From contig OY743168.1 of the NCBI GenBank assembly GCA_963555705.1, positions 19,102,139 through 19,166,138 on the forward strand: DNA of 64,000 nucleotides. Reading direction: 5' to 3'. The notes under the pieces were generated by a model, which did not search any database, was not told the origin of the DNA, and worked only from the letters and a program-made list of their open reading frames with translations. This DNA is from Ligustrum vulgare (Eukaryota; Streptophyta; Magnoliopsida; Lamiales; Oleaceae). This document shows, piece after piece, positions 1,966 to 64,000 of this stretch (position 1 is the stretch's first letter; every line of letters starts with the position of its first letter). The position numbers were made by a program, and so were the translations under genes.

Positions 1966-2178
1966 ATGAGTCACTTTTTGTGGCACTCGAATGGTCGAGA
2001 ATTCGGGTCGTCACTTGAGAGGCACCCAAGTGGTTATGTGCAACGTGAACTTCTCTCCTTATACGCTCAGTTTAACGAGGACAAAAATCGTTATAGTCTC
2101 CAAAATATAATAGCAAAAGATCCTGTTTGCCAGTCTGTTTTACAAAATGAGGCTTCTGGCAGTTCAACAATGATATAA
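1966..2178 (+). pseudogene. 5'-truncated copy of the basic zinc-finger gene, fused to LTR sequence
   Basis: The 70-codon frame starts inside the LTR arm. From about residue 18 (ERHPSGYVQRELLSLYAQFN) it matches residues about 140-180 of the 190-aa protein at 36663-37235. The N-terminal two thirds, including the Cys motif and basic cluster, is missing because the LTR end joins at 2013/2014. The C-terminus differs slightly from the intact copy. The homology then continues through the intergenic DNA into the LOG gene, so this is one end of a colinear copy of the two-gene cassette. The chimeric frame is unlikely to make a functional product. Confidence 0.7.
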
Positions 2179-2283: not shown

Positions 2284-2299
2284 ATCACCGAAAGGTGAT
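2284..2299 (+). promoter_or_regulatory. Short hairpin with GAAA loop upstream of LOG
   Basis: ATCACC-GAAA-GGTGAT is a perfect 6-bp stem closed by a GNRA-type GAAA loop. The same TCACC-GAAA-GGTGA hairpin lies at the equivalent place before the second LOG copy (37326-37339), although the surrounding sequence has diverged. Its function is unknown. Confidence 0.5.
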
Positions 2300-2390
2300 A
2301 TCTTTGGTAAAACAGTCAAAAGTTGGCCGATTTTGACAAAAGTAAATCTTTACTTTTTCATAATCAATCAAAAACAGTAAATTTTTTCGG

Positions 2391-2402
2391 CTTTAAATAG
2401 CC
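2391..2402 (+). promoter_or_regulatory. Putative TATA box of LOG copy 1
   Basis: GGCTTTAAATAGCC lies about 75-80 bp before the LOG ATG. The same TTTAAATAGCC stands at about 37409-37420 before the second copy, so the gene seems to move with its own plus-strand core promoter. No transcript evidence is available from sequence alone. Confidence 0.45.
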
Positions 2403-2474
2403 AAACATATTTCATAGTTCAGGCATCCCAAAATCACATCTTCTTCGTAAGTTTTCTCTTCTATACTATCAAAG

Positions 2475-3128
2475 ATGGAAGCACCAAAACTTCGACAGAT
2501 CAAAACTATTTGTGTATTTTGTGGATCAAAAGTGGGGAAAGGCTTCAGTTATCTAGAAGCGGCCGTAGATCTTGGAAAGAAACTGGGGGAAAAAGGTATC
2601 ACTCTTGTGTATGGGGGTGGTAGCAGTGGTCTAATGGGTTGTGTTTCCCAATCTGCTCTTGCAGAGAAATCAAAAGTAATCGGTGTCATACCTGTCCCTT
2701 TGGTAGATGTTGCAGGCAAAACACGAGGGCATGAAGTTCAAACCTTATCCATCCATGAACGCATAACTTGTATGCTATATGGTTCTGATGCCTTTATAGC
2801 CCTGCCCGGAGGTTTTGGTACCTTAGAAGAAATCTTTAACATTACCTCGTGGGCTCAACTAGATCTCCATACTAAGCCTATTGGGCTTCTGAATGTTAAC
2901 AATTTCTTTGATGGTTTGTTAACCTTTCTTGATTATGCTGTGGAACAGGGATTCATCTCTCCATTTTCCAGAAGGCTTCTTATTTATGCTCCTACTATTG
3001 ATGAACTACTGGATAAGCTGCAGTCATATATCTCAATACAAGATCCAGCAGGGGTTAAGATAGATTGGTCGCAAGGAAGGGGAATCAAGCGAAAATGGAG
3101 TCCGGTTAATGTAAACTTAACTTTATGA
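2475..3128 (+). CDS. Intronless LOG-type cytokinin riboside 5'-monophosphate phosphoribohydrolase, copy 1
   Basis: The 217-residue protein is full length for the plant LOG family, cytosolic enzymes that release active cytokinin bases from their riboside monophosphates. Visible motifs are an N-terminal ICVFCGS Rossmann strand (12-18), YGGGSSGLMG (46-55; usual form GGGSVGLMG), HER (94-96) with the conserved Arg, and PGGFGTLEE (111-119; usual form PGGYGTLEE) with its terminal Glu. ITSWAQL, KPIGLLN and GFISPF follow the family pattern. The lysine that normally follows the HER arginine is Ile here, and a basic C-terminal tail (about 195-217) is unusual. Plant LOG genes normally have several introns and this one has none, so it looks retro-copied. 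The ATG is supported by the TATA-like box 75-80 bp upstream and by conservation of the start in copy 2. The protein is 204/217 identical to copy 2. Enzyme activity is inferred. Confidence 0.9.
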   Translation: MEAPKLRQIKTICVFCGSKVGKGFSYLEAAVDLGKKLGEKGITLVYGGGSSGLMGCVSQSALAEKSKVIGVIPVPLVDVAGKTRGHEVQTLSIHERITCMLYGSDAFIALPGGFGTLEEIFNITSWAQLDLHTKPIGLLNVNNFFDGLLTFLDYAVEQGFISPFSRRLLIYAPTIDELLDKLQSYISIQDPAGVKIDWSQGRGIKRKWSPVNVNLTL

Positions 3129-3138
3129 ATCTTAGAAT

Positions 3139-3351
3139 AGGTGGGGGTAGAGTACGGAGTATTCTTACTCTCGAGACACCCCTCTAATTTCCTAGGATTT
3201 CCTTAATGTTTAAATCTTGTGTGTACCTCAAAGGTTCCAGGTGGTAGATTACGGAGTATTCTTACTCTCGAAACACACCTCTTTGAAGGTTTCTTTATTT
3301 CCTCAAAAGGTCAGAGGTGGTAGGATACGGCTACTCCGGAAACACATCTCT
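3139..3351 (+). repeat. Three tandem hairpin motifs in the LOG 3' region
   Basis: Three related ~40-47 bp units start near 3139, 3239 and 3313. Each opens AGGTGG-TAG, has a core like TACGGAGTATTC and closes with CACCCCT, CACACCT or CACATCTCT, so an outer stem AGGTG/CACCT and an inner stem AGAGTA/TACTCT can form. In the third unit both sides of the outer stem are altered. The same three units follow LOG copy 2 (about 38157-38360). Confidence 0.65.
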
Positions 3352-3420
3352 CAATTTGAGGAATTTCCCATGTTGCTTTCTTTTGATTTTGCATGTTTCA
3401 TGTATTTCTTTCCAATGTGA

Positions 3421-5398: not shown

Positions 5399-6049
5399 TG
5401 TGACGACCCGAATTCTCGACCATTCGAGTGCCACTAAAAGTGACTCATATCATATTATCGAGACTTAAATAGTAATGTAAAATTATTCAAAAAAATAATT
5501 AGAATCCCATAATTTTATTTGTGAATAAAAATAGAACATAATTTTCTTACATAAAGTTCAACATAATTATCTCATCAAAATCATATTATCGAGACTTAAA
5601 TAGTAATGTAAAATTATTCAAAAGAATAATTAGAATCCCATAATTTTATTTGTGAATAAAAATAGAACATAATTTTCTTACATAAAGTTCAACATAATTA
5701 TCTCATCAATCTTAAACACTTTTGCCACTTCCATGTTGACCGCCTCGAACCTTCAATTATCTGAAAATGGTAAATATCGTGGAGTGAGATTTATAAAATC
5801 CCAGTAAGTATACCAAGCATAAATTTTCTTTTGAAAGCATATGGATCATTTTCATCATAACATAGGATAGGATCGAAATACTCATAAACATAGGGAGACA
5901 CAAGAATTTTACCGAACTTAAATGGCAAGAATTCTTATGTGTAGCGCTACTAAACTCCGGTCCCCTTAGCATAATCATAAACATATCATATGGAACCCAT
6001 AACAATCTTGTGAGATTGATTTCATAGCAATGATCCAAACATTTTCATA

Positions 6050-6465
6050 AAAACATAAGATATACTTACTTGTCATAAAAACATACTTACTTTTCATAAA
6101 AACATAAGGTGTATTTACCTTTCATAAAAACATACTTACTTTTCATAAAAACATAAGATATACTTACTTGTCATAAAAACATACTTACTTTTCATAAAAA
6201 CATAAGGTGTATTTACCTTTCATAAAAACATACTTACTTTTCATAAAAACATAAGATATACTTGCTTGTCATAAAAACATACTTACTTTTCATAAAAACA
6301 TAAGGTGTATTTACCTTTCATAAAAACATACTTACTTTTCATAAAAACATAAGATATACTTACTTGTCATAAAAACATACTTACTTTTCATAAAAACATA
6401 AGGTGTATTTACCTTTCATAAAAACATACTTACTTTTCATAAAAACATAAGATATACTTACCTTT
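6050..6465 (-). repeat. Mirror copy of the ~98-bp tandem array
   Basis: This is the reverse complement of the array at 920-1330, with about 4.3 units. Single-base variants such as CTTGCTTGTC at about 6262 distinguish units. Confidence 0.85.
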
Positions 6466-6669
6466 TAAAAGATTAAAATGAAGTGTAGTAGTAAATGGAC
6501 CAAAACTTTCTTGACCACCTTGAATTTCTCTTACTTGTGGATTTTGTCAAGAGATTGGAAATAAGTGTATATGTGTAGAGTTGTGTGTAAAAGAGATGGG
6601 TTTAAATAGATGTATAAAGTTGGCATATTGTAAACATAATCATTCAATTCTATTAATTTTAACACATCC

Positions 6670-7140
6670 TTTTCTTAAAGTAAAGCACCATTCATATACT
6701 TTTCCATATTTATACAAATATTATGCTCTTCATGATTACATATAATGGAGTCTTATCAACCATTCATATACTTTTCCATATTTATACAAATATTATGCTC
6801 TTCATGATTACATATAATGGAGTCTTATCAACCATTCATATACTTTTCCATATTTATACAAATATTATGCTCTTCATGATTACATATAATGGAATCTTAT
6901 CAACCATTCATATACTTTTCCATATTTATACAAATATTATGCTCTTCATGATTACATATAATGGAGTCTATAATTCATTCATATACTTTTCCATATTTAT
7001 ACAAATATTATGCTCTTCATGATTACATATAATGGAGTATATAATTCATTCATATACTTTTCCATATTTATACAAATATTATGCTCTTCATGATTACATA
7101 TAATGGAGTATATAATTCATTCATATACTTTTCCATATTT
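6670..7140 (-). repeat. Mirror copy of the ~71-bp tandem array
   Basis: This is the reverse complement of the array at 270-690, with between 6 and 7 units. The copy number and the order of unit variants differ slightly from the left arm, so unequal exchange has occurred since the arms arose. Confidence 0.85.
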
Positions 7141-7472
7141 ATTAAATTAAGATTCTCATAATTATTATATATAATGGAACCTCTCATGCTTGCATATATT
7201 TTCTTAATTTCAATAATAAAAATAATTTTTGTATAAATAAATATTGGGATAACATTGAATTAAGTACTTGGACTTAATATACTTTAAATCAAGAGAATGG
7301 AGATTTTTTTAGAAATTCGGAATTTAATTTAAAATCGAACGATCTCGATTATTTCTTGACTTGGCTATACGAATACGTCGTGGCGTTAACTTAATAAAAA
7401 TGGGTGAAATAGTAGCGACACGATTTTCTATTAAAATAATTATTAATCGCGTAAAAATTCTTGGTCGCTACA

Positions 7473-8488
7473 TGCATTGCCCTGTCCTAGTCAGTAATAA
7501 TCCCTATTGGTTCCTTACCCTCCATACACTCAAGCCATGTACGGAAGATCCACACGAATGTCTCTGTATCCTCATTTGAAAGCAAACCACATCCGAGTAA
7601 CATTGATTGACCATGATGATTTACTCCAACAAAAGGGGCGAATGGCATATCGTACTTATTGGTCAAGTATGTGGTATCGAAAGTTACGACATCTCCAAAC
7701 TCTTTACATGCTTCCCTGCACCTATTATCGCACCAAAACACATTCTTCAACCTACACTCATCATCCAAATCTACACTGAAATAAAACCCAGGACAATTTG
7801 CTTGCATTTTAGAAAAATATGTGTGAATAGCAATGGCATCCCCTTCACCGAGCCTTAGGCGTCTAACCCTGTCGATGAAGTTTCTGCAATCCTTTTCGGT
7901 ATATGTCAGTTGCTCGTAACCACCAGCTTCAATCACAGTTGAGTTGTAGCTTTTGTGCATGGGAATTCCATCTATATCATTCAATTCAAGCCGCCTCTTC
8001 ACTTGGTCGGTCATTTCTCGATTACATCGATACAATCTGGATTTCGAAGGACTTGTTGCATGATTATGTTCCAAAATCACTTTCGTCAGAACCCACATTC
8101 CCGATATTTCACACATAGTTGTCAACCTAGCTAGACAACCAGTATGCATTGATGGTTGCGGCTTCAAAGAACTGCTTGAGGAACTACTTCTTCGGCCTTC
8201 TCTAGCACATGTGAAGGTAGCATATCTTTTCACACCATCCTCGCCCTTCCTCGAACTTCTTTTTCTCACAGGGAACCCCACACTAAAAGCATGACGTTTG
8301 TAAAACTGGAACACTTCATTCTCGTCAATGAACTTCATCCCAACCGTTGGCACAATTTCACTGATTTGTTGCCCCGTTTCTTCTTCTGTAGTACCAATGT
8401 ACCTATCTCCTACTGTGTCAATATTTTCCAATAACTCTACATCCACATTTACTGAATTCACATTCGTTTCCTCATCATCAGAATACAT
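7473..8488 (-). pseudogene. FAR1/FHY3-related (FRS) gene, truncated by LTR insertion
   Basis: The 333 readable residues hold a FAR1 DNA-binding domain (about 50-155; Cys94, Cys118 and His141-Asn-His143 of the WRKY-GCM1 type zinc finger). A linker follows, then the start of the MULE-transposase domain (about 262-333) with FDTTYLTNKY supplying the first catalytic-type Asp and GIITD the next conserved Asp block. FRS proteins are transposase-derived nuclear transcription factors of light signalling. The codon after ITD is TAG where the family has Gln, and the next codons (GAC AGG GCA ATG) still fit the family, so a nonsense mutation lies just before the LTR junction at 7472/7473. The C-terminal half of the transposase domain and any SWIM zinc finger are missing. 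The start at 8488 follows an intron-acceptor-like TTTTATAG. The gene is very probably dead unless a truncated product is used. Confidence 0.85.
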
Positions 8489-9640
8489 TCTTAAACCACC
8501 TATAAAACCAAAATAAATTACTTATATTACTGTCAGTGCTAGTTACATAGCTATCAGATGAAAGTATAGTCAAGAAAAGTATGTCTACATGTTCACGGTG
8601 AGAATAAATTCATAAAATAAACTCAATTCTCAAATCAATACTTATGATGAACTTGCATAATAGTGGTGATTTTACATTAAATTCATCAATTCTTTTTGAA
8701 CACTTACCCAACTTCATCAATTCTTACTGAACACAAGTTCAAATTGAAATGCATAATAGTGGTCATTTTACATTATATTCATCAATTCTTATTGAACACT
8801 TACCCAACTCCATCAATTCTTACTCAACACTTACCCAACGTCATCAATTCTTATTGAACACAAGTTCAAATTGAAATTCATAATAGTAGTCATTTTACAT
8901 TACATTCATTTCGCAAATTCATATGGAAGGCGCATATAATTAGTTGGACCACAATATATTTCAAATTACCAGAACATTGTAAGAAAATGGAAAAGGAAGC
9001 ATTTTACGTCTCACCCTTGAGTGTGAATTCTATAATTTCAGTTGGCTCGTTTATATTTCCAGAATGCACAGCCTGAGTTCTTCGAGAGCTACCGGATCTG
9101 AAAACTGGACATACACAGAAGCTCCAATAATCAGGTAAATAATGGACTACACCTGATATCTTCAAAGGAGCTCAAATATGGGCATGAATCTGCAGCTTCG
9201 ACCTCGCTGAAAAAGGACAAATTTGCTTCCTTCGCAGCTTCGAAACTGAAGAGGAAATCTGCCATCTTTGGAAGAGCTCAAATGTGGAATGAATTTGCCA
9301 TCATAATGTAGCTTCAATCTTGATAGAATCTGACTGGAAATACGTTTGGCTTCATATTTTGCAGATCCACGAACCCAACAAATATTCAGATCTTGGTCCT
9401 GAGTGAGAGATGAAGAAGCTATTTGCAAAAATCATGAAGAACTTCCAGCAGTGACACCGGTGATAGCATTTTACGTGACACCGGTGATAGCGGCAGGCGG
9501 TATGTGGGCGTTTGCAGTCGGAGTACGAAGGAGGCGAGAGTTGGGTGTGAGTTGAAGAGAGGAAGTTGCTGAGTGAGAGATGAAATGCCCGATTTTGGTG
9601 GCTTCTTTTTGTTTCAGTCATTTTCTCGTGTTTCCATCAT
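8489..9640 (-). other. Putative 5' intron and leader region of the truncated FRS gene
   Basis: Upstream of the FRS ATG, TTTTATAG reads as a 3' splice site, implying a leader intron. About 8690-8900 contains a small repeat family (CATCAATTCTTATTGAACAC, ACAAGTTCAAATTGAAAT). About 9000-9640 is less AT-rich and has open frames on the minus strand with no recognisable domain, so it may be 5' UTR exon sequence. GACACCGGTGATAGC occurs twice near 9450-9490. Exon boundaries cannot be fixed. Confidence 0.35.
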
Positions 9641-13899: not shown

Positions 13900-16319
13900 A
13901 AGTTTATTATACTGTTATGCTCGAAAAATCTTCTATGCCATTTGTTTCATATTTTTGTTTATGAATATCTTCCGTTTCATGGAGAATCATATACTTTTTT
14001 TGGGGTGAAAGGATTTTCGAAATCCTTGATCTTGGTATATTCGGTAGAAGTTTATTTCAGATTATTGACTCACTTCCCGAGGCCTGATGCTCCTCGATAA
14101 AGCTCTCGAAAAAAATTATTATTGATTTAGATTGTTTCTTTTTTAGAATAGTGATACAATATTCTTCTGAAATATTGTACTATAATATTGAATGTAAAAC
14201 ATACATTCGAACAAATGTTTATTGTAAGTTAGTATAATCAAAACGATATAATAAGATCGAATAATTTTTCCACTTTCTATGAAAATTCAAAGTTAATGGA
14301 ATACAAACCTTTACTTTGAGTAGAAAAAGAAACTCGTGAACAAGTAAAAAAATAAATTGAATATTTATCATAAAATAAAGTTGTTATTCTTTAGGAATAA
14401 TAACAAAATACTTTTTCAGAATATCAAATTAATAACATATCTCATAATATTGGGTTCTTCGGGATCAAATTATATTCCATTATTATATTTCATATGAGAT
14501 AAAATTATGATTCTTCAGGAATCATCACAACAATATATTATACTACATCATAATAATCTTCTGGATTATTAATAAATTCGAATTTCTTTGAGAAAAAGAA
14601 TGTAATATTTATCACATGAATAATAAAATAATATTCTTCTAGAATATTGAAATGTAGCAATAACGCAATATTCTTCTGGAATATTGATTCGAATCTCATT
14701 CAATTATAACAATAATTAATATCTATTATGCTATTTAGGAGCAAAATAACGAATTATTCTTCTGGAATAATTATATTGCTAAAATTGCAATTCACCAAGA
14801 ATAATAAGTCAATATTCTTCTGAAATATTGATATTAATGATTCATTCTACCTTTCAAGCTAACAATATTTGTACTCTACACGAGTGAGGTTAAAATATTA
14901 TTCTGGAATATTTACCTAACGTGGGTTGTCTTTATTCGAGAACACCAACACCATATTCATTTAAAACATATTTTAAATTATGCTTCTTCAAGAACATTGG
15001 ATCAATATTCTTCTGAAATATTGAAATTGTAATATACTGCACGTTACAAGCAAGTAATATTCTTCTAGAATACTACTATTGTTGTCCTACTTCGTGAGCA
15101 ACAACATGATACATTATTAAATCAGAATTTATGAATGAACATCTACAAATATTTAATCATCTTAAAGAATATTAATTACCATATAAACATAATATGAATT
15201 TATGCATAAAAATGAATTCTCAAACGTACATCAGGAAAAAGAATCTCCATATATAAAAGTTAACAAAATTGACTAAATCTTTTATTGGCTAAATCTTTTA
15301 CCAATTTGCAAAAGATACTAAACATGCACGTGAATTCCATATATAAAAATTAGATATATAAATAATATATGGTAGAATCAAATCTAGTGTATTTGAGAAT
15401 TCAAAATAACGTAGTGATTGCCAATGACTAAATTAAAAGAGCAAAAAATAATAACAATAATAATTTGTTGGAATAAGGTATACTTTAACGAATTTATTTC
15501 GATTCTTCCAAAAAAAATAATAAATTAATATTCTTCTAGAATATTGAAAATTATAATTCATGCTCTTTAGGAGCAAATAACATCCTTTTAGGATATTAAT
15601 TTTAATGTCGTACAACTTCAGGAGTAACAACAAATTATTTATAATAGACAATTTTACGATTAATATTCTTCTGGAATATTAATTATTTATTACGTTACTT
15701 AGAGAGCAATAACGAATTATTCTTCTGAAATAATTATAGATCTAAAATTGTTATTATTCAAGAATAAAATGTCAATATTCTTCTAGAATATTGAAAATTA
15801 CAATGTATGTTCTTTAGGAGCAAATAATATTCATCTGAATTATATGTTGTGCTACTTCAGGAGCATCAACAAATATTTGTAATAGACAATCACAGATCTG
15901 TGATTAATATTCTTCTGAAATATTAATATAACGTTGTACTACTTCAGGAGCAATAACGAATGAACTAATAACATCAATAAATTTGTAATGAACAAATCTA
16001 TAATTAATATTCTTCGGGAATATTAATATATACTATTGTACTACTTCAGGAGTAACAACATAATGAATTATCAATATAAAGATCAAAATCTGTCGAATTG
16101 GTTGGAGAAAATCATATTCAAATTTATGAGCCGCAATTGCTAATGAACAACATCGTAATGAATAGATGTGAATTGCAATTGAATAGTAATAAAAAAAATT
16201 CATATGTCACCAAATTAATTTCGGTGCATATGATTTTACCTTATAACTAATATTTTGGTTTATGAGATTCTAAAAAAGAAAATTCTAACTCAATTTGGTA
16301 GAGATTCGTACTGATAACG
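13900..16319 (-). mobile_element. Left-truncated interior of a Copia-like LTR element carrying many hairpins
   Basis: This AT-rich stretch lies directly 3', on the minus strand, of the LTR at 16320-16484 and its primer-binding-like sequence. No protein-coding frame survives. It holds at least a dozen perfect hairpins in which the stem varies but the loop is TTCTG, TTCAG, TTTAG, TTCTA or TTCGG. Examples are 14551-14571 (8-bp stem), 14666-14686, 15659-15683 (10-bp stem) and 16003-16027. No polypurine tract or second LTR was found on the left, so the element is truncated. Confidence 0.6.
14630..14686. repeat. Example pair of variable-stem, conserved-loop hairpins
   Basis: 14630-14648 is AATATTC-TTCTA-GAATATT and 14666-14686 is CAATATTC-TTCTG-GAATATTG. 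Neighbouring members have different stems (14507-14525 ATGATTC/GAATCAT with loop TTCAG; 14752-14772 AATTATTC/GAATAATT with loop TTCTG; 15561-15575 TGCTC/GAGCA with loop TTTAG). The pairing is therefore preserved while the bases change. Confidence 0.8.
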
Positions 16320-16484
16320 TGTTATAAACTAGAGAGAAAAGTAGAGACACCAATAAACTTGTGTATTCTATTATGAACCAGAGCCCCCATATATATAGGG
16401 GAAGAAAGGGATATACAAAGTAATTATAACTAGGGTTACGGGGATATAATTTTCATTCACTAATACAAGATAATATTTACAACA
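16320..16484 (-). mobile_element. Copia-like LTR (165 bp), 5' LTR of the hairpin-rich remnant
   Basis: The LTR runs TGTTATAAACT...ATTTACAACA on the plus strand, so TG...CA on either strand. It is closely related, in reverse orientation, to the LTR at 63506-63677 (shared ATATATAGGGG and AATACAAGATAATATTTAC blocks). On its left the sequence GATTCGTACTGATAACG corresponds to the tRNA-Ile-like primer-binding site seen complete beside the LTR at 39549. Confidence 0.7.
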
Positions 16485-16518
16485 CAATTGAGATTTTGTC
16501 AGCTATTAGAATAGAGAG

Positions 16519-32718: not shown

Positions 32719-33767
32719 CTTTGCTATACAAAAATGGGTTTGCTTCTCTCCATTTATATAGATAGGGCTAATCCTCATAATTAGTGAAGTTTCATTTAGC
32801 CTCCATTCGGCGGTTAAATTTATAACACTAAAAGACAAAATTCAACACAAAATTTAATTTACACAATTTACCAAACAACTTTTTAACCATCCATATTTTC
32901 TTTCTCCAATTACACAATTTCTCAAACTAATTTTTAACCCTACATCTTACCTAGAAAATACAAATAAATCCAACACAAAAATTAATTTCATAATTACTGT
33001 CTACCGAACATAGCCTTAGAAATTAATTTACTCAATAGAAACGTTCAATGAGAGTTAGGTGACAATATTGACCTAATACTTTAAATTGCACCTTTGTTTC
33101 ATAGAGGCTGCAAGGAAAAAAAGTAATAGAGTAGAAACACAATGACAATTATTTGATGCATCTATTCAATAACAGACTATCTACAGCTGGTAGACTGTGT
33201 GTTAACGTGATATAAAATGTAGTGTGAGTAACTCAATTTCATCATTCATTGAATCTATCATATAATGCCACCTTGATTGATAAATTATAGTATCATTGAC
33301 TTTGAATAACACATAACATGTTATTCGCTATTTTAATTTTATTGGGAGACGATTTAGTTTTGAATAAAAGTGATGATTCGTCAGCAAAGAGAGAGGGGGA
33401 CAATTTCAATTAATGAAATGTTGACTAATATGGATCAATTTGTTTGGGACCGCTGCTGAATATATAGTAATAAGACACTGAAAGTACTTTGGCCAACATT
33501 ATTTCTATTCTATTCTATTCTATACTATAATATAAAATGACGGTAGTGCCTTTTTATTAATGAATGATGATCAATGATGAACTAAAAAATCTTATTAATA
33601 GATGAATCAAATTTTTTACAAGAAAGATAACAGCATCCTCAATGGTTGGGTCTATGTACTGGAATCTCTCATCAAGATTGTTTAATTCAACGCGAATGTC
33701 CAGAAAATGCGAAATCCGTGAAAAAAGACAATATGCATTGGTCAAAAATTTCGAAAATAAAAGTCAG
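32719..33767. other. Upstream flank of the proline-rich gene and duplicated block A
   Basis: 32820-33010 holds a dispersed MITE-like repeat. From about 33640 the sequence is paralogous to about 56170-56280 (shared GGTCTATGTACTGGAATCT). On the minus strand, 33557-33745 encodes a 62-aa frame (LNNLDERFQYIDPTIEDAV) also visible in the paralogue. It may be an exon fragment of an unidentified gene. The LTR element interrupts the block at 33768. Confidence 0.45.
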
Positions 33768-34001
33768 TGTTATAAAACTATCAAAATCTAAACAAGAATT
33801 AGAGATGAAGAGATGGAGAGAATAAAGAGGAGAATTCTCATTCCATTAGGTGTGTCAAATACAACAATGAATACCTCTATTTATAGGAAGATAAAGTCAT
33901 TCACAATAATTCTTTACAATATTAATTAGGTGGGAGTTAGGTAAGAAATTAGGTAGAGATCTACAAAGGAATTTCTTAATAATTTCTAATAATTTATAAC
34001 A
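33768..34001 (-). repeat. LTR (3' copy by element polarity)
   Basis: This 234-bp LTR is identical to 39549-39782 except for A/G within the AATGAATRCCTC stretch near the TATA box. The minus-strand TATAAATAGAGG suggests the pol II promoter. Confidence 0.9.
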
Positions 34002-34033
34002 CTCCCCCTTGAATGACTTATTGCTCAATTGTC

Positions 34034-34760
34034 TTCCTCGTTAAAACCTTGCTAAGAAAATCCAGTGGGATAAAACTTGAGCAAAGGAAAAAAGAGTACA
34101 GCTGCTCCCCCTGATGTTGGCCATCATTAATCATTGAGTCTAATATCCAAAATGACATCAATAATAAGTAGTACAAATCATGTACTGAAATCTGAAGTGC
34201 TTCGCTGCTTCAGTGTTTTAGTGCTTTAGTGCTGCCTCGTTAAAACCTTGTCAGTAAAACCCAATGGGACAAAATCTGAACGAAGGAAAAAGAGTACAGC
34301 CGCTGCCTCGTTAAAACCTTGTCAGGAAAACCCTGTGGGACAAAACCTGGACGAAGGAAAAAGAGTACAGCATGACAGCATGATTCTCCCCCTGAAGTGT
34401 GCAATCAAGTATTCATGAACCTTTTGAATAATGATATCATCTTTCTTCTGGAATATATATGAAAATCTTCCTGTGTGTAGCCGATATCATAACATTCTTC
34501 ATAAGATGTGTATGATTTTCTTCATTTGTTGATATCATTCCAGTATAACAATGTGTTGCTGAATTATAGCTTGTTGATAGCTATGATGATGCCTCAAAAA
34601 CCTTGCTAGGAAAACCCTGTGGGACAAAACCTCAGCGAAGGGAAAAAGAGTGCAGTATTCTCATTAATTTTCATCAATACGCCTCAACTGTTGCCTCATT
34701 AAAAACCTTGCTAGGAAAACCCTGTGGGACAAAACCTCAGCTAAGGGAAAAAGAGTGCAA
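34034..34760 (-). repeat. Five copies of a ~68-bp Copia 3'-region repeat
   Basis: Copies start near 34034, 34232, 34303, 34590 and 34692. Each has CCTCGTTAAAACCTTG (or CCTCA-), GGAAAACCC(T)GTGGGACAAA and GAAGGAAAAAGAGTACAGC. Similar repeats are common near the 3' end of plant Copia elements. CTCCCCCTGA polypurine-like complements occur beside several copies. Confidence 0.75.
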
Positions 34761-34921
34761 CGCGTATTTATTCCTTTTCATGGAATATCACAAGTATATT
34801 GATGCAATCACGAATCTTTTCATCGTATAATTTATGATGAGCTTTATATAAATCGTTCATAGCTCATGATGTCATAACATGCTATATTAAGCAATGTTGT
34901 ACTAATTTATTGATTGCATCT

Positions 34922-35260
34922 TTCACTTCTGGTGAATAATCAAATTTAGAATTCACTTCTGGTGAATAATTAAACATATTCATTTTCATATTCACTTCTG
35001 GTGAATAATTAAATCTAGAATTCACTTCGGGTGAATAATTAAACATATTCATTTTCATATTCACTTCTGGTGAATAATTAAATCTAGAATTCACTTCTGG
35101 TGAATAATTAAACATATTCATTTTCCGAATTCACTTCTGGTGAATATTCATTTTCCGGATTCACTTCTGGTGAATATTCATTTTCCGGATTCATTTCTGG
35201 TGAATATTCATTTTCCGAATTCACTTCTGGTGAATATTCATTTTCCGGATTCATTTCTGA
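34922..35260. repeat. Array of ATTCAC-TTCTG-GTGAAT hairpins
   Basis: About a dozen copies of a perfect 5-6 bp palindromic stem around a TTCTG loop are spaced by AATTAAA- or ATTTTC-type spacers. This is the most regular part of the hairpin family found in this element. Confidence 0.85.
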
Positions 35261-36662
35261 TGGATAATATAATTTTGCATATTGAAAATCAATTGCATGC
35301 CCAAATATTCAAATATAATAATAGTACACTCCAATTTCACTTTCAACATATTATATCATGAAGTCATTTGTATCATTCTATAGTGATACTAATCTGGGCA
35401 TATTGAATCTTTCAATGATTTATACATGTATGTTCTTGCACTTTATAAACTGCAATTTCTAATTTGCAGGAGCATAATCAATCATTGAAATAGATATCAA
35501 TTTTGACATATAATCTACAATCATTTTACTTGAAATCCCAACGTACCGCGATCAACTGGTACATCAAAGAATACTCTCAAAGTACCGAGATGAGAATCAT
35601 ACATTTTGATCTCACTCATTGGTATATCAAAGAGCTCAAGCTAGTGATTTAGACTATAGTCTATCCACCATATGTCATGTTACACATTTAAGCATTTAGA
35701 CTTCAGGTCGCAATTTGGACTTCAGGTCCTTGAACAATAATCCCTACATTGGGTTTATATACTTGGCCAAAGTATTATAATTTCATCAACCTCATTTTTA
35801 TAAGAGGGTATGCAGTCGACTTATTTATCGATTCCATTTTAATATAACATAGAGAGATCTCTATATATGTTCTATCATCAGGTACCTGAGTCTCTTACAT
35901 TTAACTATGTCCCTTTTACTCACTATGAGTATTTAACCTCAAAGGGATCATTTCAATCATTCAAGAGATATTTATTTTTGGAATCGATAGTCATTATGCT
36001 TCAGGCATAATTACGCTTCAGGCGTGTTTTCCCCAAATATTATATTATATCAATTGGCTAAAATGCCGCACATGTCGTCCCTTTTAGGGATGTAATTTCA
36101 ACCATATATCTCGCTTTGGTAGATTGTATACATACCACACTTTTACAAATCATAAAGCTTCTCGAGCTAATCCCGTTTATTATAGAACTTCTGGTTCAAT
36201 ACGGTTTTATTTCATTTTGATGTATGAATATTTGATTCAATACAATATTGCTAAACTTCTGGTTCTGGTTCATACTATATACATATTTCACTTGTACGTA
36301 TGAACTTCTAGTTCAGTAAGATATTTCACTTGTACGTATGAACTTCTGGTTCGGCAAGATATTTTACTTGTACGTATGAACTTCTGGTTCAATACAGTAT
36401 TCATTTCATCAGTACATATTTATGTACAGTTCAAATCAGTATGCCTTTATTATTTTTATACCGAAAAATCAGGTACAATATCCAAGGAAATATCTCATGA
36501 TCTCAATCTTGTCGCCAAATCTTCTCTTATATCGAAAAAGGTAATGACGCATTATCTCACCTTTTTAATAATTTATTCCATTATTTCTTGATGGAATCTA
36601 TATTACTGACACGCGGAGCCACCGCTCTTTTACGCGTTAAATAATGCATTTAAATAGATGAT
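35261..36662. other. Non-coding interior of the LOG element with dispersed hairpins
   Basis: No protein frame with recognisable homology is seen. Perfect hairpins occur at 35717-35729 (GGAC-TTCAG-GTCC), 35994-36010 (TTATGC-TTCAG-GCATAA), 36013-36025 (ACGC-TTCAG-GCGT), 36301-36315 (TGAAC-TTCTA-GTTCA) and 36377-36391 (TGAAC-TTCTG-GTTCA). Confidence 0.6.
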
Positions 36663-37235
36663 TTGGGAAGAAGGCTAGATCCATCAAAAATGGATATCAT
36701 ACTTTCAAATATTCGCAAATATTATTCCAATCTTCCAGTAAATGATTTGAGAAAAATTTATCGAATTAGGCTCGAAAGATTGAGGTTGCTGATGGATCAT
36801 GGTATCCCAGAAGATGTTCGCTGGTTGATCGAAGCAAAAGTTCGATTAGCTGGTGAATTGCCATTGACATTTCCTAAACACATGCCTGGTTTAGGAAAAA
36901 GTACTTTTGCAAAGAAACGAAGAGCAAAAAGGCTTAACGGTTGTTACAAATGTGCTCGTTGGACATGTGATACTCGTTGCAAATCAGTAGGATATTCTTC
37001 TGGAAATCGGGATGACAAAATCGATTTCATTAAGGGTGGACTGAGTAAGGAGTCATTGGATGATATCCGATTGACTCTTGAGACGCACCCAAGTGGGTAT
37101 GTGCAACGTGAACTCCTTTCCTTATATGCTCAATTTAACAAGGATAAAAACCGTTATAGTCTCAAAAATATAGTAGCAAAAGATCCTGTTTGCCAGGCTG
37201 TTATAAACAATGATGTTTTGGCTGTTCAGCATTGA
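36663..37235 (+). CDS. Basic Cys-motif protein, similar in pattern to viral nucleic-acid-binding proteins
   Basis: The 190-residue frame is intact. An N-terminal helical, basic region (about 10-65) is followed by a Lys/Arg cluster FAKKRRAKR (82-90) and four cysteines at 94, 97, 102 and 106 (C-x2-C-x4-C-x3-C), then a charged C-terminal part (about 130-190). A basic cluster directly before a compact Cys finger recalls the small cysteine-rich nucleic-acid-binding proteins of plant RNA viruses such as carlaviruses. That likeness is a visual inference, not a search result. An alternative is an unrelated host zinc-finger gene. The gene lies on the strand opposite to the retroelement transcript, 257 bp upstream of LOG in the same direction, and its 3' half recurs before LOG copy 1. 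The start is the first in-frame ATG. Confidence 0.6.
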   Translation: MGRRLDPSKMDIILSNIRKYYSNLPVNDLRKIYRIRLERLRLLMDHGIPEDVRWLIEAKVRLAGELPLTFPKHMPGLGKSTFAKKRRAKRLNGCYKCARWTCDTRCKSVGYSSGNRDDKIDFIKGGLSKESLDDIRLTLETHPSGYVQRELLSLYAQFNKDKNRYSLKNIVAKDPVCQAVINNDVLAVQH

Positions 37236-37325
37236 TACAAGGTAAATCTTTTGATATATATGCACATATAAAATATTTTGCTGTTTCCTTTCACGAGTTT
37301 TGATAAAGGCTGTTTAAATATTAAA

Positions 37326-37339
37326 TCACCGAAAGGTGA
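37326..37339 (+). promoter_or_regulatory. Short hairpin with GAAA loop upstream of LOG copy 2
   Basis: TCACC-GAAA-GGTGA has the same position and sequence as 2284-2299 before LOG copy 1. Confidence 0.5.
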
Positions 37340-37408
37340 GTAGGGTGATTTTGTCAAAAGTAAATCTTCACTTTTTCAAAAAACGAGCGGAAATAGTGAA
37401 GTTTTTCG

Positions 37409-37420
37409 GTTTTAAATAGC
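37409..37420 (+). promoter_or_regulatory. Putative TATA box of LOG copy 2
   Basis: TTTTAAATAGCC stands about 80 bp before the ATG. It is conserved with copy 1 and gives the plus-strand gene a promoter independent of the LTR. Confidence 0.45.
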
Positions 37421-37492
37421 CAAACATTTTTCATAGTTCATTCATCCCAAAATAACATTTTCTCGTAAGTTTTTCCTTCTTTACTTTCAAAA

Positions 37493-38146
37493 ATGGAAGG
37501 ATCAAAACTTCGACAGATCAAAACTATCTGTGTATTTTGTGGATCAAAAGTGGGAAAAGGTTTTGGGTATCTAGAAGCAGCCGTGGATTTAGGAAAGAAA
37601 TTGGGAGAGAAAGGTATCACTCTCGTGTATGGAGGAGGTAGCAGTGGATTGATGGGTTGTGTTTCACAATCCGCTCTAGTAGAGAAAGCAAGAGTGATAG
37701 GTGTTATACCTACTCCTTTAGCTGATATCGCAGGCAAAACACGAGGGCATGAAGTACAAACCTTATCTATCCATGAACGCATAACTTGCATGTTATATGG
37801 TTCTGATGCCTTCATAGCTCTACCTGGAGGTTTTGGTACTTTAGAAGAAATCTTTAATATTACCTCATGGGCTCAACTAGATCTCCATACTAAGCCTATT
37901 GGGCTTTTAAATGTAAACAATTTCTTTGATGGTTTACTAACATTTCTTGATTATGCTGTGGAACAGGGATTCATCTCTCCATTTTCTAGGAGAATCCTTA
38001 TTTCTGCTCCTACTATCGAGGAACTGCTGGATAAGTTGCAATCATATATTTCAATACAAGATCCAGCAGGAGTTAAGATAGATTGGTCGCAAGGAAGGGG
38101 AATCAAGCGAAAATGGAGTCCGGTTAATGTAAATTTATCTTTGTGA
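37493..38146 (+). CDS. Intronless LOG-type cytokinin riboside 5'-monophosphate phosphoribohydrolase, copy 2 (inside LTR element)
   Basis: The 217-residue protein has the same landmarks as copy 1: ICVFCGS (12-18), YGGGSSGLMG (46-55), HER (94-96), PGGFGTLEE (111-119) and the extra basic tail (about 195-217). Thirteen residues differ from copy 1 and none is in these motifs. In the first 64 codons I count 18 synonymous against 4 non-synonymous codon differences, so the protein has been conserved while silent sites drifted. The host retrotransposon is very young (LTRs 233/234 identical). The gene points against the element's own transcription. Expected role: release of free cytokinin from riboside monophosphate in the cytosol. 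Activity and expression are not shown by sequence. Confidence 0.9.
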   Translation: MEGSKLRQIKTICVFCGSKVGKGFGYLEAAVDLGKKLGEKGITLVYGGGSSGLMGCVSQSALVEKARVIGVIPTPLADIAGKTRGHEVQTLSIHERITCMLYGSDAFIALPGGFGTLEEIFNITSWAQLDLHTKPIGLLNVNNFFDGLLTFLDYAVEQGFISPFSRRILISAPTIEELLDKLQSYISIQDPAGVKIDWSQGRGIKRKWSPVNVNLSL

Positions 38147-38156
38147 ACTCTAGAAT

Positions 38157-38360
38157 AGGTGGTGGTAGAGTACGGAGTATTCTCACTCTTGAGACACACC
38201 ATAAATTTCTAGGATTTTATCAATGTTTTAATCTTGTGTACCTCAAAGATTTAAGGTGGTAGAGTATGGAGTATTTCTTACTCTTGAAACACACCTTTTT
38301 CTTTATTTCCTCAAAAGGTCAGAGGTGGTAGGATACGGCTACTCCCGAAACACATCTCTT
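38157..38360 (+). repeat. Three tandem hairpin motifs in the 3' region of LOG copy 2
   Basis: Units begin near 38157, 38252 and 38321. They match the three units after copy 1 in order and spacing (AGGTGGTAGAGTACGGAGTA core, CACACC close). Confidence 0.65.
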
Positions 38361-39548
38361 ATTTTGAGGATTATAAATGTTTTTCCCCTTTTTCGTTTTG
38401 CATGTATGACTCGTTTTATGCTTATTCAGGAGCAATAATAATATCATTTCAGTATATTTAGATGATAATTTTTACTTCTTCTGGAGTAAATATGTACTTC
38501 TTCTGGAATACATAAGTGCTCGTGCAAGAACTTTTCCAGACACTTATCATCTAATATTCATCTCATAATACTGATGAGATTATTTTCACATTAGCTATGT
38601 CCGTGCTATCATGTGATATTATTTTATCATACATCAACATTCTCTTGTTGAATAATTTTCATCCACCCATTCAAATTCAGATATTGGTAACTTCTGGTAC
38701 CATTGGATAAAATATTTTTATCAACATTTACCAACTTTTTGGTAGTGATAACTTCTGGTATCATTTGATGAAATATTATCTATCTTTAGTAGTGATAACT
38801 TCTGGTATCATTTAATGAAGTATTAAATAACAATATTTTATTAACAATAATAATATTAGGGTTATACCACCAAGTATATATTAACAATAATATTGTATAT
38901 ATATTAACAATAATAATACTGGGGTTATACCACCAAGTATATATTAAAAATAATATTGTATATATATATTAACAATAATGATACTGGGGTTATACCACCA
39001 CGTATATATGTTGACAACAATCCTCTAATATGTTAGAATTAACCAACAATTGAGGTGTTTATATGTATTCAATTGATAAACCGACCATATAGGCGGTGTC
39101 AACATAATAAAATAATTAAACCGACCATATAGGCGATGTCAACATAATGAAATAATTAAACCGACCATATAGGCGGTATCAACATAATGAAATAATTAAA
39201 CCGACCATATAGGCGGTATCAACGTAATGAAATAATTACCTTTCATGAGTGAGTGAATCATATCTTTCAGTCAAGGTATTCATAATAGTCCAATCCGTTA
39301 CGGTGCGTGAATTTGCTTTGAAAGTTTCGGGTTACACAATTTCTCCAATTTTTTTCTATGGACTTGGAATTGATTTTCTAATCTATGATGTATAAATGAT
39401 TTTCTAATACCAAAAACACTAGATTTGAAATATGAAACGTTGATTAATAATAATCTGGTTTCTGATACAGAAGTTCATCATTTAGATGCAACTGTAGAGC
39501 ATACTCCCGTCGTATTACTCAATTGGCTAGAGACTCGTGCTGATAACG
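38361..39548. other. Non-coding 5' interior of the LOG element (minus orientation) with tandem repeats
   Basis: The stretch holds TTCTG-loop hairpins with a bulged stem (TGATAAC-TTCTG-GTATCA type, 38690-38815), three ~60-bp units with GGGGTTATACCACCA (about 38865-39005) and four 40-bp units starting AAACCGACCATATAGGCG (39077-39238). No coding frame is seen. Confidence 0.6.
39521..39548 (-). promoter_or_regulatory. Primer-binding site complementary to the 5' half of tRNA-Ile
   Basis: The plus strand reads like the D-arm to anticodon arm of plant tRNA-Ile (GGCTAGAG...CTCGTGCTGATAACG), so the element RNA (minus strand) is complementary to it. It adjoins the LTR directly. Priming from an internal tRNA half is known for Copia-group elements. 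The tRNA identity is my reading of the sequence. Confidence 0.6.
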
Positions 39549-39782
39549 TGTTATAAAACTATCAAAATCTAAACAAGAATTAGAGATGAAGAGATGGAGA
39601 GAATAAAGAGGAGAATTCTCATTCCATTAGGTGTGTCAAATACAACAATGAATGCCTCTATTTATAGGAAGATAAAGTCATTCACAATAATTCTTTACAA
39701 TATTAATTAGGTGGGAGTTAGGTAAGAAATTAGGTAGAGATCTACAAAGGAATTTCTTAATAATTTCTAATAATTTATAACA
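39549..39782 (-). repeat. LTR (5' copy by element polarity)
   Basis: This 234-bp LTR is followed on its right by the target duplication GTCAG (39783-39787). Minus-strand transcription would start from its TATAAATAG. Confidence 0.9.
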
Positions 39783-39811
39783 GTCAGCATTATTCTTTCT
39801 CAAAAACTTTA

Positions 39812-60646: not shown

Positions 60647-61369
60647 TGATGTGTTCCGGACCATCGACAATCGGAGTCATAGCAAGCTTGACGGAAAAAG
60701 TTAAATATTCAAGCCAAATAAAAGTGCAATCTAGTCAACCATGTTGGAATTAGATGCATAATATATGTTTTTCGAGTAGAAATTGACCACTAAACAAAAT
60801 TCAGGGGCTAAAGCCCTTGAGCCGACTGATTTTATGACCAAATTTCATCATTTGGGGCTTCAAAACAGCAAGTCAATTATGCAGACGGAAATTAGGATTT
60901 TTGCGTATTTTTAGGTTAAATTTTGTTTTTAATTATTTGTTTGTCTATTTTAGAATTTTAGTCTAATTAGAATTCTATTTTGAGTCAATTAGCGGCTATG
61001 TTATTTTACTTATTTATATTCCTTTCCATTCATTGTAATTCAGACTTGAGATTTGATTTGATTAAAAACAGTTTTATTGAGGATTCAATAAAAGTTATAG
61101 GTGGATTCATATGTTTTCGAACTTATCAAGAATATTTCTTGTGGCGTTCAAATATCGAACTTATCAAATATTTGCTAGAATATTTGTGGCGTTCAAAACC
61201 AGAAACTTATCAAGGAGATTGGGCAATTCCTTGTGGCGTTTCGAAAGTCTTGGTTCTTTATTCCGCATCGTCGAACCATCGCGTCTGAATATCGGGTCAA
61301 GATTCCACCGTCCAACCACAACCTGGGTTCGGAATTTCCGGTGTTTCTTCCGCGCTTCGAATCTCATCA
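60647..61369 (+). mobile_element. 5' LTR of a deleted Gypsy element, 723 bp
   Basis: It starts TGATGTGTTCC and ends ATCTCATCA, giving perfect 5-bp inverted ends TGATG/CATCA. GGTATCAGAGCTGG (about 61373-61386) follows as a tRNA-Met-type primer-binding site. Its first ~390 bp recurs at 63027-63416. Confidence 0.8.
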
Positions 61370-61849
61370 TCCGGTATCAGAGCTGGACTTTGAATTCAGG
61401 TTTTTCTATCCAGTTTAATTTTAATGTTTATCATCGAGTCCCATAAAAATCATCCATATCTTGTTGAGTGTTTTGTTTTCAGTTTTTTTTAGTTTTCTTG
61501 TTCTTCGTGTCGTAAAAACTTTCAGTTTTTGATTCATATAAAAATTCAAGTAAAATTCAAAAGTGTTTGTTTTATTCGATTCTTATCAAAATCTTGTTCC
61601 TTTTGTTTTGTTGCGTTCGTGTCGAATTTTCGGATTTATTAAAAAAATTTATTTTTTATTTAATTCCGAAAATTCATTATTCAAAAAAAAAAAAAAAAAA
61701 AAAAAGTTATTCCAAATTCAAGAACCACTTTCTTGAGTTTCTTTAAAATTCTTGATATCCATTTCCTTCCAAATCAATAAAAGTCGTTTTTTGCTATTTG
61801 ATGTCTAAATCCTCTTCATTCTTGAATTTTTTTTAACGCCACATAAGGA

Positions 61850-62605
61850 ATGGATTATGATCCGGACTCTTTATTCCAAACTAGATGTTATGTGGATCAT
61901 AAGGGGTGCAGTTTGGCGAATGATGGAAAGTGCTTTTCTAATTTCGTTAGTAGCACTGTAGTTGAAAAATTAGGATTGCTCCTAGAACCACACTATAAAC
62001 CTTATAGGATGACGTGGATGAGGGAGTTAGGGAATTTCAAAGTAACCAAACAAGTTCTAGTGCCTATTGCTCAGGGAAGGTATAGTGAGGATGTATGGTG
62101 TGATGTAGTACCATTAAAATCTTATCATATTTTATTGGGAAAATCATGGAGATGTATGAGGGAGGCTGTTTATAATAAGAGTATGCACATATACAAATTT
62201 CTTAAGAAAGGGAAAGCATGCGTACTATATGGATTGACATTAGAGGATGCACTAGAAGATTCACGAATGGTAAGGAAGGAGAGTGAAAGGTGGTGTAATA
62301 GGAAGCGTCGTGGGGGTAAGGCCATTGAAAAGAAGGAGGGGGAGTTTAAATTAAAAATAGATAATCAAACTCCAAAATTTGATGAGGAAAATGTGGAGTT
62401 GGGTAGCGAGGAAATGATTAAGAATGAAGTTGTTGATGATGAGAGGAATGAATTGGAAGTTGGGGTAGAAGTTCAAAATTTGGGTTTTGAATTGGTAGAT
62501 CCACATTTGGATAGTGATGAGGTAGTGTGCGAACATGGTAATACGAATGTGGGGGTAGAAAATGTGGTTGAATTTGAAAGAAAAAAATTTGAAGAGGTGG
62601 ATTAG
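61850..62605 (+). pseudogene. Gypsy retroviral-type aspartic protease segment, catalytic motif degenerate
   Basis: The 251-residue frame aligns by eye with the protease region of plant Gypsy polyproteins (FVSSTVVEKLGL, QVLVPIAQGRYSEDVWCDVV, SYHILLGKSW blocks at about 30-110). At the active site D-S/T-G is replaced by DGKC (LANDGKCFSNF, about 22-32), so proteolysis is unlikely. The C-terminal half is acidic and low in complexity. A stop at 62603 ends the frame, although similar codons continue to about 62720. Gag, RT, RNase H and integrase are absent between the two LTRs. Confidence 0.7.
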
Positions 62606-63009
62606 CTAGAAAATCTTGAGTTAGAGGAAGTAACCGAGCTTGAGAGAACAGAGATAGAGGGGGGTGAGCAAGAAGTTGCAAAAGGAGAACGAGGTGAAGA
62701 GAAGTGTCTCATGGTTCAAAGGGTGGAATTGACGGTGATAATTCATGAATACAAGGATCCATACATTATACCTCATGAACCTAACATTTCCTTCCCCGCT
62801 TTATTTAATTTTGTCTTCCAGGTTAAATGTACTTGAAAATTTGGGCAACACCACCAATGCCCACAGGAGTTTCTACTTCAATCCATTCATGTAACCTAAG
62901 TTACAGGATACTATTGGTCATTCTTCTGGCATGGAAGCAATAATTTTCCGTTTGATCCAGGAGGTGAAGTGAAACAACAGTAACAAAACTATGATTCGGG
63001 ACAAATCAT

Positions 63010-63416
63010 CCTAAAGAAGGAGGGTATGATGTGTTCTGGACCCTCGACAATCGGAGTCATAGCAGGCTTGACGGAAAAAGTTAAATATTCAAACAAATAA
63101 AAGTGCAATCTAGTCAACCATGTCGGAATTAGATGCATAATATGTGTTTTTCGAGTAAAAATTGGCCAATAAACAAAACTCATGGGCTAAAGCCCTTGAG
63201 CCGACTGATTTTATGGCCAAATTCCATCATTTGGGGTTTCAAAACAGCAAGTCAATTATGCAGACGGAAATTAGGGTTTTTGCGTATTTTTAGGTTAAAT
63301 TTTGTTTTTAATTATTTGTTTACCTATTTTAGAATTTTAGTCTAATTAGAATACTATTTTGAGTCAATTAGCGGCTATGTTATTTTACTTATTTATTTTA
63401 CTTATTTATATTCCTT
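63010..63416 (+). mobile_element. Polypurine tract and truncated 3' LTR of the Gypsy element
   Basis: The purine-rich AAAGAAGGAGGG precedes TGATGTGTTCTGG at 63027. The LTR matches 60647-61036 with scattered substitutions and a small duplication of TTATTTTACT near its end. It then stops at about 63416, where Copia sequence begins. Confidence 0.8.
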
Positions 63417-63677
63417 CGTTTGATATTTTTGTCCAATTGAATTTTTATCAAACAAGGTTTTAACTAGGCAGATATTTTGTAATATCATATGTCATTCAAG
63501 GGGAGTATTGTAAATATTATATTGTATTAGTGAATGACAGTTGTACCCCTAAAACCCTAAGTATTATTACCTTGTGTATCCCTTATTTCCCTTATATATA
63601 TGGGGGCTTTGGTTTATAATAATACATAAGTTTCTTGGCCTCTTTATCTCTTCTTTATTTCTCTATAGTTTATAACA
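63417..63677 (+). mobile_element. 3' end of a Copia-like element with LTR
   Basis: ATTCAAGGGGAG (63494-63505) is a polypurine tract directly followed by a 172-bp LTR (63506-63677) from TATTGTAAATATT to TTTATAACA. The LTR is the reverse-orientation relative of 16320-16484. The interior and 5' LTR are missing, and the fragment is joined to a broken Gypsy LTR. Confidence 0.75.
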
Positions 63678-64000
63678 TTTTAATATATATATTTTTTTAA
63701 AATCCTTTTTGTTTAAAATTTTGAATAGTTTTTATTATAAAAAAAATAAAAAATAAAAAGCTACAACCTTGAAGAAGCCGACAAGACATTTGCGTGACGA
63801 CTCTCAAACAAAAGTCAATCACAATCACAATTACTCACAGACTCACAGTGGGTTCGGTGTGCCGACAGTTTTTCTATTCCTTTTTTTTTTTTTTTTTTTG
63901 TAAAGTAAATGTGTGGTTGAAAATTGGGGAGAGAGAATTTGTGTGATTAAAAAGTAGTTTGAAAAATTGTTTTATTTATAAATTTGTATTTAAATTGTGA
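63678..64000. other. AT-rich flank with a MITE-like segment
   Basis: 63890-64000 repeats the AAAATTGGGGAGAGAGAATT / AAAAAGTAGTTTGAAAAATT type of dispersed repeat and runs off the window. No gene is seen. Confidence 0.45.

Follow-up and report, generated by a model that had tools for sequence, protein, structure and literature searches.

The whole stretch of DNA analysed here, called the window, is 64,000 nucleotides long and comes from Ligustrum vulgare (assembly GCA_963555705.1, contig OY743168.1, positions 19,102,139 to 19,166,138). At 33768-39782 it carries a long terminal repeat (LTR) retrotransposon whose sole recognised genes are two open reading frames (ORFs) on the strand antisense to the element, a LOG gene, resembling those for cytokinin-activating enzymes, and a gene for a carlavirus-type nucleic-acid-binding protein of the zinc-finger kind, NABP. 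The element is probably a non-autonomous, recently active retroelement in which NABP and LOG are kept by selection as an accessory module. It belongs to a mobile LOG-bearing LTR family whose recent activity is strongly supported, and gene integrity and mobility are as good as demonstrated. A preliminary description of the same DNA had rightly recognised a LOG-bearing element, but it missed the antisense orientation of LOG and the NABP partner. The features of the element, in window coordinates, are:

33763..33767, no strand: target-site duplication (TSD) GTCAG, left
33768..34001, minus strand: 3' LTR, 234 bp, 233/234 identical to the other LTR
34002..34010, minus strand: polypurine tract AAGGGGGAG, abutting the 3' LTR
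34032..34760, minus strand: box of about 70 bp (D3), five degenerate copies
34922..35288, no strand: tandem repeats of 69 and 30 bp (D1)
36649..36657, plus strand: TATA-like TTTAAATAG, 41 bp upstream of the NABP start codon, putative promoter
36690..37235, plus strand: NABP ORF, 181 amino acids, Viral_NABP/Carla_C4, with CX2CX4CX3C and KKRRAKR, antisense to the element
37411..37419, plus strand: TATA-like TTTAAATAG, 82 bp upstream of the LOG start codon, present in the second copy too, putative promoter
37493..38146, plus strand: LOG ORF, 217 amino acids, with PGGFGTLEE, Arg96 and the C-terminal end KRKWSPVNVNLSL, antisense to the element
38158..38362, plus strand: three repeats GGTGGTAGAGTACGG..TACTC..GAAACACACC after the LOG stop, in the second copy too
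39533..39548, minus strand: primer-binding-site (PBS)-like CGTTATCAGCACGAGT, abutting the 5' LTR
39549..39782, minus strand: 5' LTR, 234 bp
39783..39787, no strand: TSD GTCAG, right

The LTRs are direct repeats with TG...CA ends, and their sole mismatch, A/G, lies at repeat offset 106. Together with the TSD, the polypurine tract and the PBS-like sequence, they bear out the complete boundaries given in the preliminary description. The LTR TATA box, CCTATAAATAGAG as read from the sequence, is on the minus strand and points left. Because the polypurine tract is on the inner side of the left LTR and the PBS on that of the right LTR, and the LTR TATA box points left, the sense strand of the element is the minus strand; LOG and NABP are on the plus strand and therefore both antisense to it. 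At literature substitution rates of 7e-9 to 1.3e-8 per site annually, one mismatch in 234 bp would date the LTRs to about 0.2-0.3 million years.

Does the element stand alone in its genome? Host-genome searches covered 1.385 Gb in 51 contigs, and the search for copies of LTR and LOG that the preliminary description had proposed gave at least 150 LOG places. In the LOG protein search the best 150 of 9417 first-look candidates were scored; all span residues 1-217 at 98-100% identity, 149 are without a stop and one has one TGA. Since only the top scorers are included, the true number is at least this high and intact copies are over-represented. For NABP the best 150 of 8869 candidates were scored; each spans residues 2-181 or more with 91-100% identity, and some have stops. 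A listed same-strand LOG lies beside 99 of these 150, the two start codons being 803 bp apart in all but one case (804), while no listed LOG lies on the opposite strand within 3 kb of any of them.

Twenty-six of the 150 LOG places were fetched, 20 picked by hand mostly from the upper part of the list and six from the lower part. All but one of the 26 have an LTR pair, and each of these 25 elements has an exact 5-bp TSD, with 24 different duplications among them (22 scored by script; L042, L061 and L062 by eye). Their LTRs show no mismatch in 23 cases and one in two (L031, L064). The lengths of the LTRs vary (about 175, 196, 197, 209, 224 and 234 bp), which means that the same NABP-LOG pair occurs with several LTR variants. 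LOG is intact in 26/26 fetched places and the adjoining NABP in 25/26. Among 18 of the fetched elements, the polypurine stretch CTCCCCCTT inside the left LTR is the same in all, and the PBS-like stretch is identical in 16, L046 and L049 being one base off. L042, L061 and L062 have LTRs of about 175 bp with a TA end instead of CA, and their TSDs are still exact. L050 (G000:C12:37380886-37388536) is rearranged: within 4 kb it has a pair of NABP-LOG cassettes that point in opposite directions, and no LTR pair was recognised.

A search with the LTR, in which the best 40 of 1390 candidates were scored, gave 23 elements by hand count. All 23 carry LOG; 17 are listed LOG places and six (L053-L058) were fetched. 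These six form a second subfamily, in which nucleotide identity is about 90% for NABP and 97-98% for LOG; NABP and LOG are present in each, LOG being frameshifted in L058. Their TSDs are exact in L053 (by eye), L054 and L055 and match at 4/5 bases in L056, while L057 and L058 are cut and were not scored. In the main type, L059 and L060 also have exact TSDs. Two doubts raised in the preliminary description, that all other copies might lack LOG and that LOG might sit in an unrelated nested insertion, can be answered here. The first does not hold, as the 23 elements carry LOG. The second is unsupported, for apart from the LTRs no repeat family of at least 30 nt flanks both sides of the cassette. 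The NABP-LOG layout is met again at independent insertion sites. Of the weak inverted matches, 21 in all with lengths of 14-31 nt and a complementarity of 74-93%, several bracket the cassette (e.g. 36529-36542/38293-38306); these look like chance in AT-rich DNA.

Paired LTRs with a TSD, and a PBS and polypurine tract inside them, are thus all present as in an LTR retrotransposon, and what the element appears to lack is a gag-pol of its own. No gag-pol ORF was found in the window element among stop-to-stop frames of at least 150 amino acids (a translated search for broken gag-pol remains was not made), the longest frame beyond NABP and LOG being one of 144 amino acids opposite LOG. The preliminary description was right in stating an intact intronless LOG and no gag-pol, but overlooked the second ORF. 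Nor was a gag-pol-sized ORF found in the 25 fetched elements flanked by paired LTRs, again without a translated search for remains. The sole extra frame of at least 150 amino acids between LTRs in these 25 is one of 168 in L047; such frames occur outside the LTRs in L033, L040, L041 and L049, and nowhere in the fetched stretches of L063-L066. In the window no tRNA genes were found, and Rfam at gathering thresholds gave no match.

Is the LOG of the element still likely to be an enzyme? Ordinary plant LOG genes have introns. The LOG ORF here is uninterrupted and intronless, and matches PF03641 (7.3e-34) and TIGR00730 (2.2e-47). Its closest solved relative is Arabidopsis At2g37210 (2a33; 2.1e-58), which we take to be LOG3, as we take At5g11950 (1ydh) to be LOG8. 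The predicted model has a predicted local distance difference test score (pLDDT) of 87, and its best fold match is Arabidopsis 2a33 at 0.8 A root-mean-square deviation. The LOG-family features are present, namely the Lysine_decarbox fold in the model, PGGxGTxxE and the conserved Arg. Alignment A3 has 48 rows, 42 element-type (including the two of the window) and six LOG3-type, where element-type denotes listed relatives of the window LOG, not each placed in an element. In the columns that we assume to be catalytic, the element-type rows hold Arg96 in 41/42, Glu118 in 42/42 and Glu119 in 41/42. The catalytic motifs and the fold are kept; the phosphoribohydrolase activity is a putative one, and each insertion may, as the preliminary description proposed, deliver a new LOG source.

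The TATA-like TTTAAATAG motif occurs eight times in the window on both strands against 3.2 expected, and 2/100 shuffles reach eight. A threefold repeat with weak hairpin potential follows the LOG stop in both diverged copies (38158-38362; 3135-3358), and it may be the 3' end signal of an antisense transcript. An RNA structure of these repeats lacks overall significance, as shuffles fold at least as well in 2-85/200 cases.

NABP matches Viral_NABP (PF05515, 2.4e-7) and Carla_C4 (PF01623, 3.1e-5), both beyond the curated gathering cut-offs, and at E 0.01 the aligned members match PF05515 in 49/49 and PF01623 in 48/49. Altogether 339 relatives were found; among the best 120, which were listed, CX2CX4CX3C is present in 104 and the basic motif in 92, and those with an organism name are all from plants (Orobanche, Populus, Acer, Xanthoceras). 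Two gene models of Orobanche gracilis, P0021 and P0030, start with NABP (61-63%) and run into a partial LOG (54-57%), and so have the same order and strand as the Ligustrum pair. Co-occurrence of NABP and LOG was also sought by shared sequence lengths (119 each). At 1200-20000 nt there are 4 shared lengths against 0.8 by chance, a weak hint only; at 600-20000 nt there are 7 against 2.6, of which 873 and 1018 are too short for both ORFs, and at length 905 the NABP and LOG rows come from different sources. Neither NABP nor LOG nor the 70-bp box had a match in the viral contigs scanned. The 16-mer of the PBS occurs in 22 viral contigs (L001-L022), which by a rough estimate is about chance level for the size of the collection.

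A further copy of the pair lies in the window itself:

2475..3128, plus strand: second LOG copy, diverged and intact, 217 amino acids (94% amino acid, 89% nucleotide identity)
2014..2154, plus strand: truncated NABP, with about the last 48 amino acids matching, upstream of the second LOG

The two LOG copies differ at 71 positions, 51 of them third positions. This gives a nonsynonymous rate (dN) of 0.032, a synonymous rate (dS) of 0.489 and a dN/dS of 0.065 (bootstrap 0.033-0.106). For NABP the comparison between subfamilies (window against L053) gives dN 0.059, dS 0.339 and dN/dS 0.175 (0.087-0.308). Diverged copies of both LOG and NABP are shown to be under purifying selection. Around the second LOG copy (2014-3396) the window has near-perfect inverted arms (1-2014 and 5400-7375, 95.5%) with internal tandem repeats. 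At the end of the right arm CA stands beside TTGGTATCAGAG, which on the minus strand is PBS-like; the arms thus look like LTRs in a rearranged palindrome.

Where does the LOG of the element come from? The window LOG has 120 listed relatives, of which 116 entered a tree (four dropped by length) together with the window's two, making 118 element-type rows; every sixth of the 120 LOG3-type matches (20, two dropped by length), LOG8 and a bacterial LOG were added for comparison. The groups were chosen by search, and LOG paralogues other than LOG3-type and LOG8 were left out. The 118 element-type rows are separate from the 19 others (18 LOG3-type and LOG8) with support of 100/98 in a careful tree and 100/97 in a quick one. 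On this tree the window LOG is in a diverged plant clade apart from LOG3-type LOGs, which makes a fresh capture unlikely. In the earlier statement that a hormone gene had been retro-captured and is now mobile, the mobility is strongly supported by the 25/25 exact TSDs; retro-capture may be one route by which the gene was acquired. In Reevesia 37 listed LOG relatives are spread over 16 chromosomes (hand count by gene name), as would be expected for a mobile family.

The proteins of this clade also share a particular C-terminus. A terminal LxLxL is found in 95/120 listed relatives (100 in a loose form) and in 0/120 LOG3-type matches, with 0.6 expected from shuffled tails; after clustering on residues 1-190 it is present in 12/16 clusters at 70% identity and 29/36 at 80%. 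The LOG3-type set collapses to one cluster at 70%, and the tail control therefore amounts to one lineage. A basic pair stands within the last 20 residues in 108/120 listed relatives against 5/120 LOG3-type, and a basic run such as KKRK usually precedes the tail. The KRKWSPVNVNLSL tail, in the loose form, is found in the window and 26 sampled loci. The tail is EAR-like, and TOPLESS would be its candidate partner.

Why would a retroelement keep such a pair? The element has retained the cis signals for copying, its LTRs, PBS and polypurine tract, and gag-pol supplied by other elements would copy the family. It encodes NABP, with its virus-type zinc finger, and on the same antisense strand the intronless LOG with its alternating-hydrophobic, EAR-like tail, both presumably driven by antisense promoters. 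By analogy with the cysteine-rich proteins of flexiviruses, NABP would most likely shield the RNA of the element from silencing or regulate transcription. LOG would most likely release cytokinin bases locally and so favour dividing meristem-like cells, where new insertions might reach the germ line to the benefit of the element. As the pair has been kept intact by selection over many copying rounds, it would act as the accessory module of the element. A bolder version, which we hold to be possible but rather doubtful, is virus-like host manipulation, where antisense NABP would lower silencing, EAR-tailed LOG would raise cytokinin or reprogram cells via TOPLESS, and the resulting permissive dividing cells would allow copying by borrowed machinery and passage to the germ line.

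Such a module would be of some general concern. Non-autonomous elements are usually thought to have no useful cargo. In this genome no fewer than 149 LOG copies have stayed open, adding well over 100 candidate LOG sources to it. One gene linked to silencing and another linked to a growth hormone are kept in one element, so that it can be asked by experiment whether transposons spread by manipulating plant hormones and silencing. Some annotated 'LOGL10-like' genes may be element genes.

Other explanations have to be weighed against a selected accessory module. The cassette might be passenger cargo, a filler amplified between good LTRs whose proteins are useless to the element. The copies are so young (23/25 with identical LTRs) that recent integrity alone needs no selection, and the choice of the best-scoring 150 LOG places favours intact copies. 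But diverged pairs keep both frames, with dN/dS of 0.065 for LOG and 0.175 for NABP while dS reaches 0.49 and 0.34, and the same NABP-LOG pair is met in Orobanche; we regard mere cargo as improbable. Still harder to credit is late capture, in which one element recently acquired an ordinary plant LOG. It would explain the plant-type LOG and its high similarity to Arabidopsis At2g37210, but the window LOG groups with 117 element-type rows apart from LOG3-type and LOG8 (100/98), and many relatives are multi-copy and dispersed (the 37 in Reevesia, for instance), though they were not each placed in elements.

A different function of LOG deserves more attention, although we think it unlikely. The LOG fold might be only a scaffold whose basic alternating-leucine tail recruits TOPLESS-type co-repressors, so that the protein acts on chromatin or silencing and not on cytokinin. 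The distribution of the terminal LxLxL (95/120 listed element-type against 0/120 LOG3-type; 12/16 clusters at 70%) and of the basic pair near the C-terminus (108/120 against 5/120) would agree with this, as would the loss of Lys97 in 39/42 aligned rows. Yet the conserved Arg and Glu are retained, the tail of the window LOG has the loose form only, the LOG3-type control is one lineage, and the tail is disordered in the predicted model.

Some observations weigh against a selected module with an active LOG, and should be noticed. The residue after Arg96 is Lys in 6/6 LOG3-type rows, while in the element-type rows it is Ile or Met in 37/42 and Lys in 3/42; with Lys97 lost in most of them, substrate or rate may differ. 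GGGxxGLMG is kept in 99/120 listed relatives against 120/120 LOG3-type, and NF058542, NCBI's equivalog model for the phosphoribohydrolase, scores 106 bits against a cut-off of 300, a figure for which no ordinary plant LOG was scored as yardstick. The window tail, VNVNLSL, is not a strict LxLxL. The predicted model of NABP is poor (pLDDT 63; predicted template modelling score 0.29), and the fold search with this weak model gave no significant match, its top viral row, a flexivirus NABP at E 0.66, not being evidence. Among the 150 listed NABP places, 51 have no partner among the best 150 LOG places, including 9 of the 108 at 98% identity or more; as both lists hold the best rows only, an unlisted partner does not mean absence. 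Between subfamilies LOG has a dN/dS of 0.099 with a wide interval of 0-0.294. The truncated NABP of the second copy has about 0.33 (0.095/0.291, 47 codons), a weaker constraint that may be expected of a broken gene. Finally, the purifying selection could in part be gene conversion or survival of master copies.

Elsewhere in the window other mobile sequences are found. A FAR1/MULE transposase open frame of 344 amino acids lies at 7490-8521 on the minus strand. At 60647-63403 LTR-like direct repeats (94%) flank an open frame, 61847-62602. By eye this frame is like the protease region of Gypsy elements, it has no Pfam match, and a PBS-like site GGTATCAGAGC lies near 61374. Pieces of another LTR family, mutually inverted, lie at 16288-16485 and 63404-63680, with a PBS and polypurine style like those of the LOG element. 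They are a possible lead to its gag-pol partner.

How does the element compare with known systems? Arabidopsis LOG3 and LOG8 share with its LOG the fold, PGGxGTxxE and the conserved Arg, but they stand on a separate tree branch, and the LOG3-type set is without the basic LxLxL tail. The cysteine-rich nucleic-acid-binding proteins of carlaviruses and mandariviruses resemble its NABP in the Pfam families Viral_NABP and Carla_C4, a basic motif and zinc-finger-type cysteines. As the relevant passages of PMC12172455 have it, viral cysteine-rich proteins are silencing suppressors, and one is a transcription factor causing hyperplasia. These proteins belong to RNA viruses, whereas the Ligustrum NABP is found at no fewer than 150 places in a plant genome, 99 of them beside a listed LOG. 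For cucumber DNA, PMC3136472 describes a flexivirus replicase-like sequence.

Among retroelements, conserved antisense ORFs between pol and the 3' LTR are described for plant LTR retrotransposons in passages of PMC7264820 and PMC11963269 (Grande gene23, RIRE2 and Retand ORF4), with roles given there as unknown; according to PMC7264820, no clear likeness of such ORFs to database proteins had been described. Unlike the Ligustrum element, these elements have their own gag-pol. The proteins encoded by the ORFs are of nuclear, SMC or TRP28 type, and neither paper uses the words YgdH or cytokinin. Orchid Gypsy elements carry an ALKBH N6-methyladenosine (m6A) demethylase, as told in part of PMC9289625; here too a plant retroelement has taken up an enzyme gene and retained it, but the enzyme is another one and the elements are Gypsy with their own reverse transcriptase. 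The nearest likeness is in the YgdH sections of the same paper, which report YgdH (LOG-type) domains in consensus sequences of Gypsy-type LTR retrotransposons from two Citrus species and also, once a filter was switched off, from Populus trichocarpa, and which cite Steinbauerova 2011. There as here a LOG-family domain lies inside plant LTR retrotransposons. The Citrus and Populus elements, however, are Gypsy-type and were found by their reverse transcriptase, whereas the Ligustrum element has short LTRs and no gag-pol ORF, and those sections of PMC9289625 mention neither a partner NABP nor a tail, and give no strand and no test of selection. Our literature search found no report of an NABP partner, an NABP-LOG module or a LOG tail in retrotransposons. 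LOG in LTR elements is therefore already known, while its pairing with NABP as a module in a high-copy family without a gag-pol ORF, the selection on it and the tail appear unreported.

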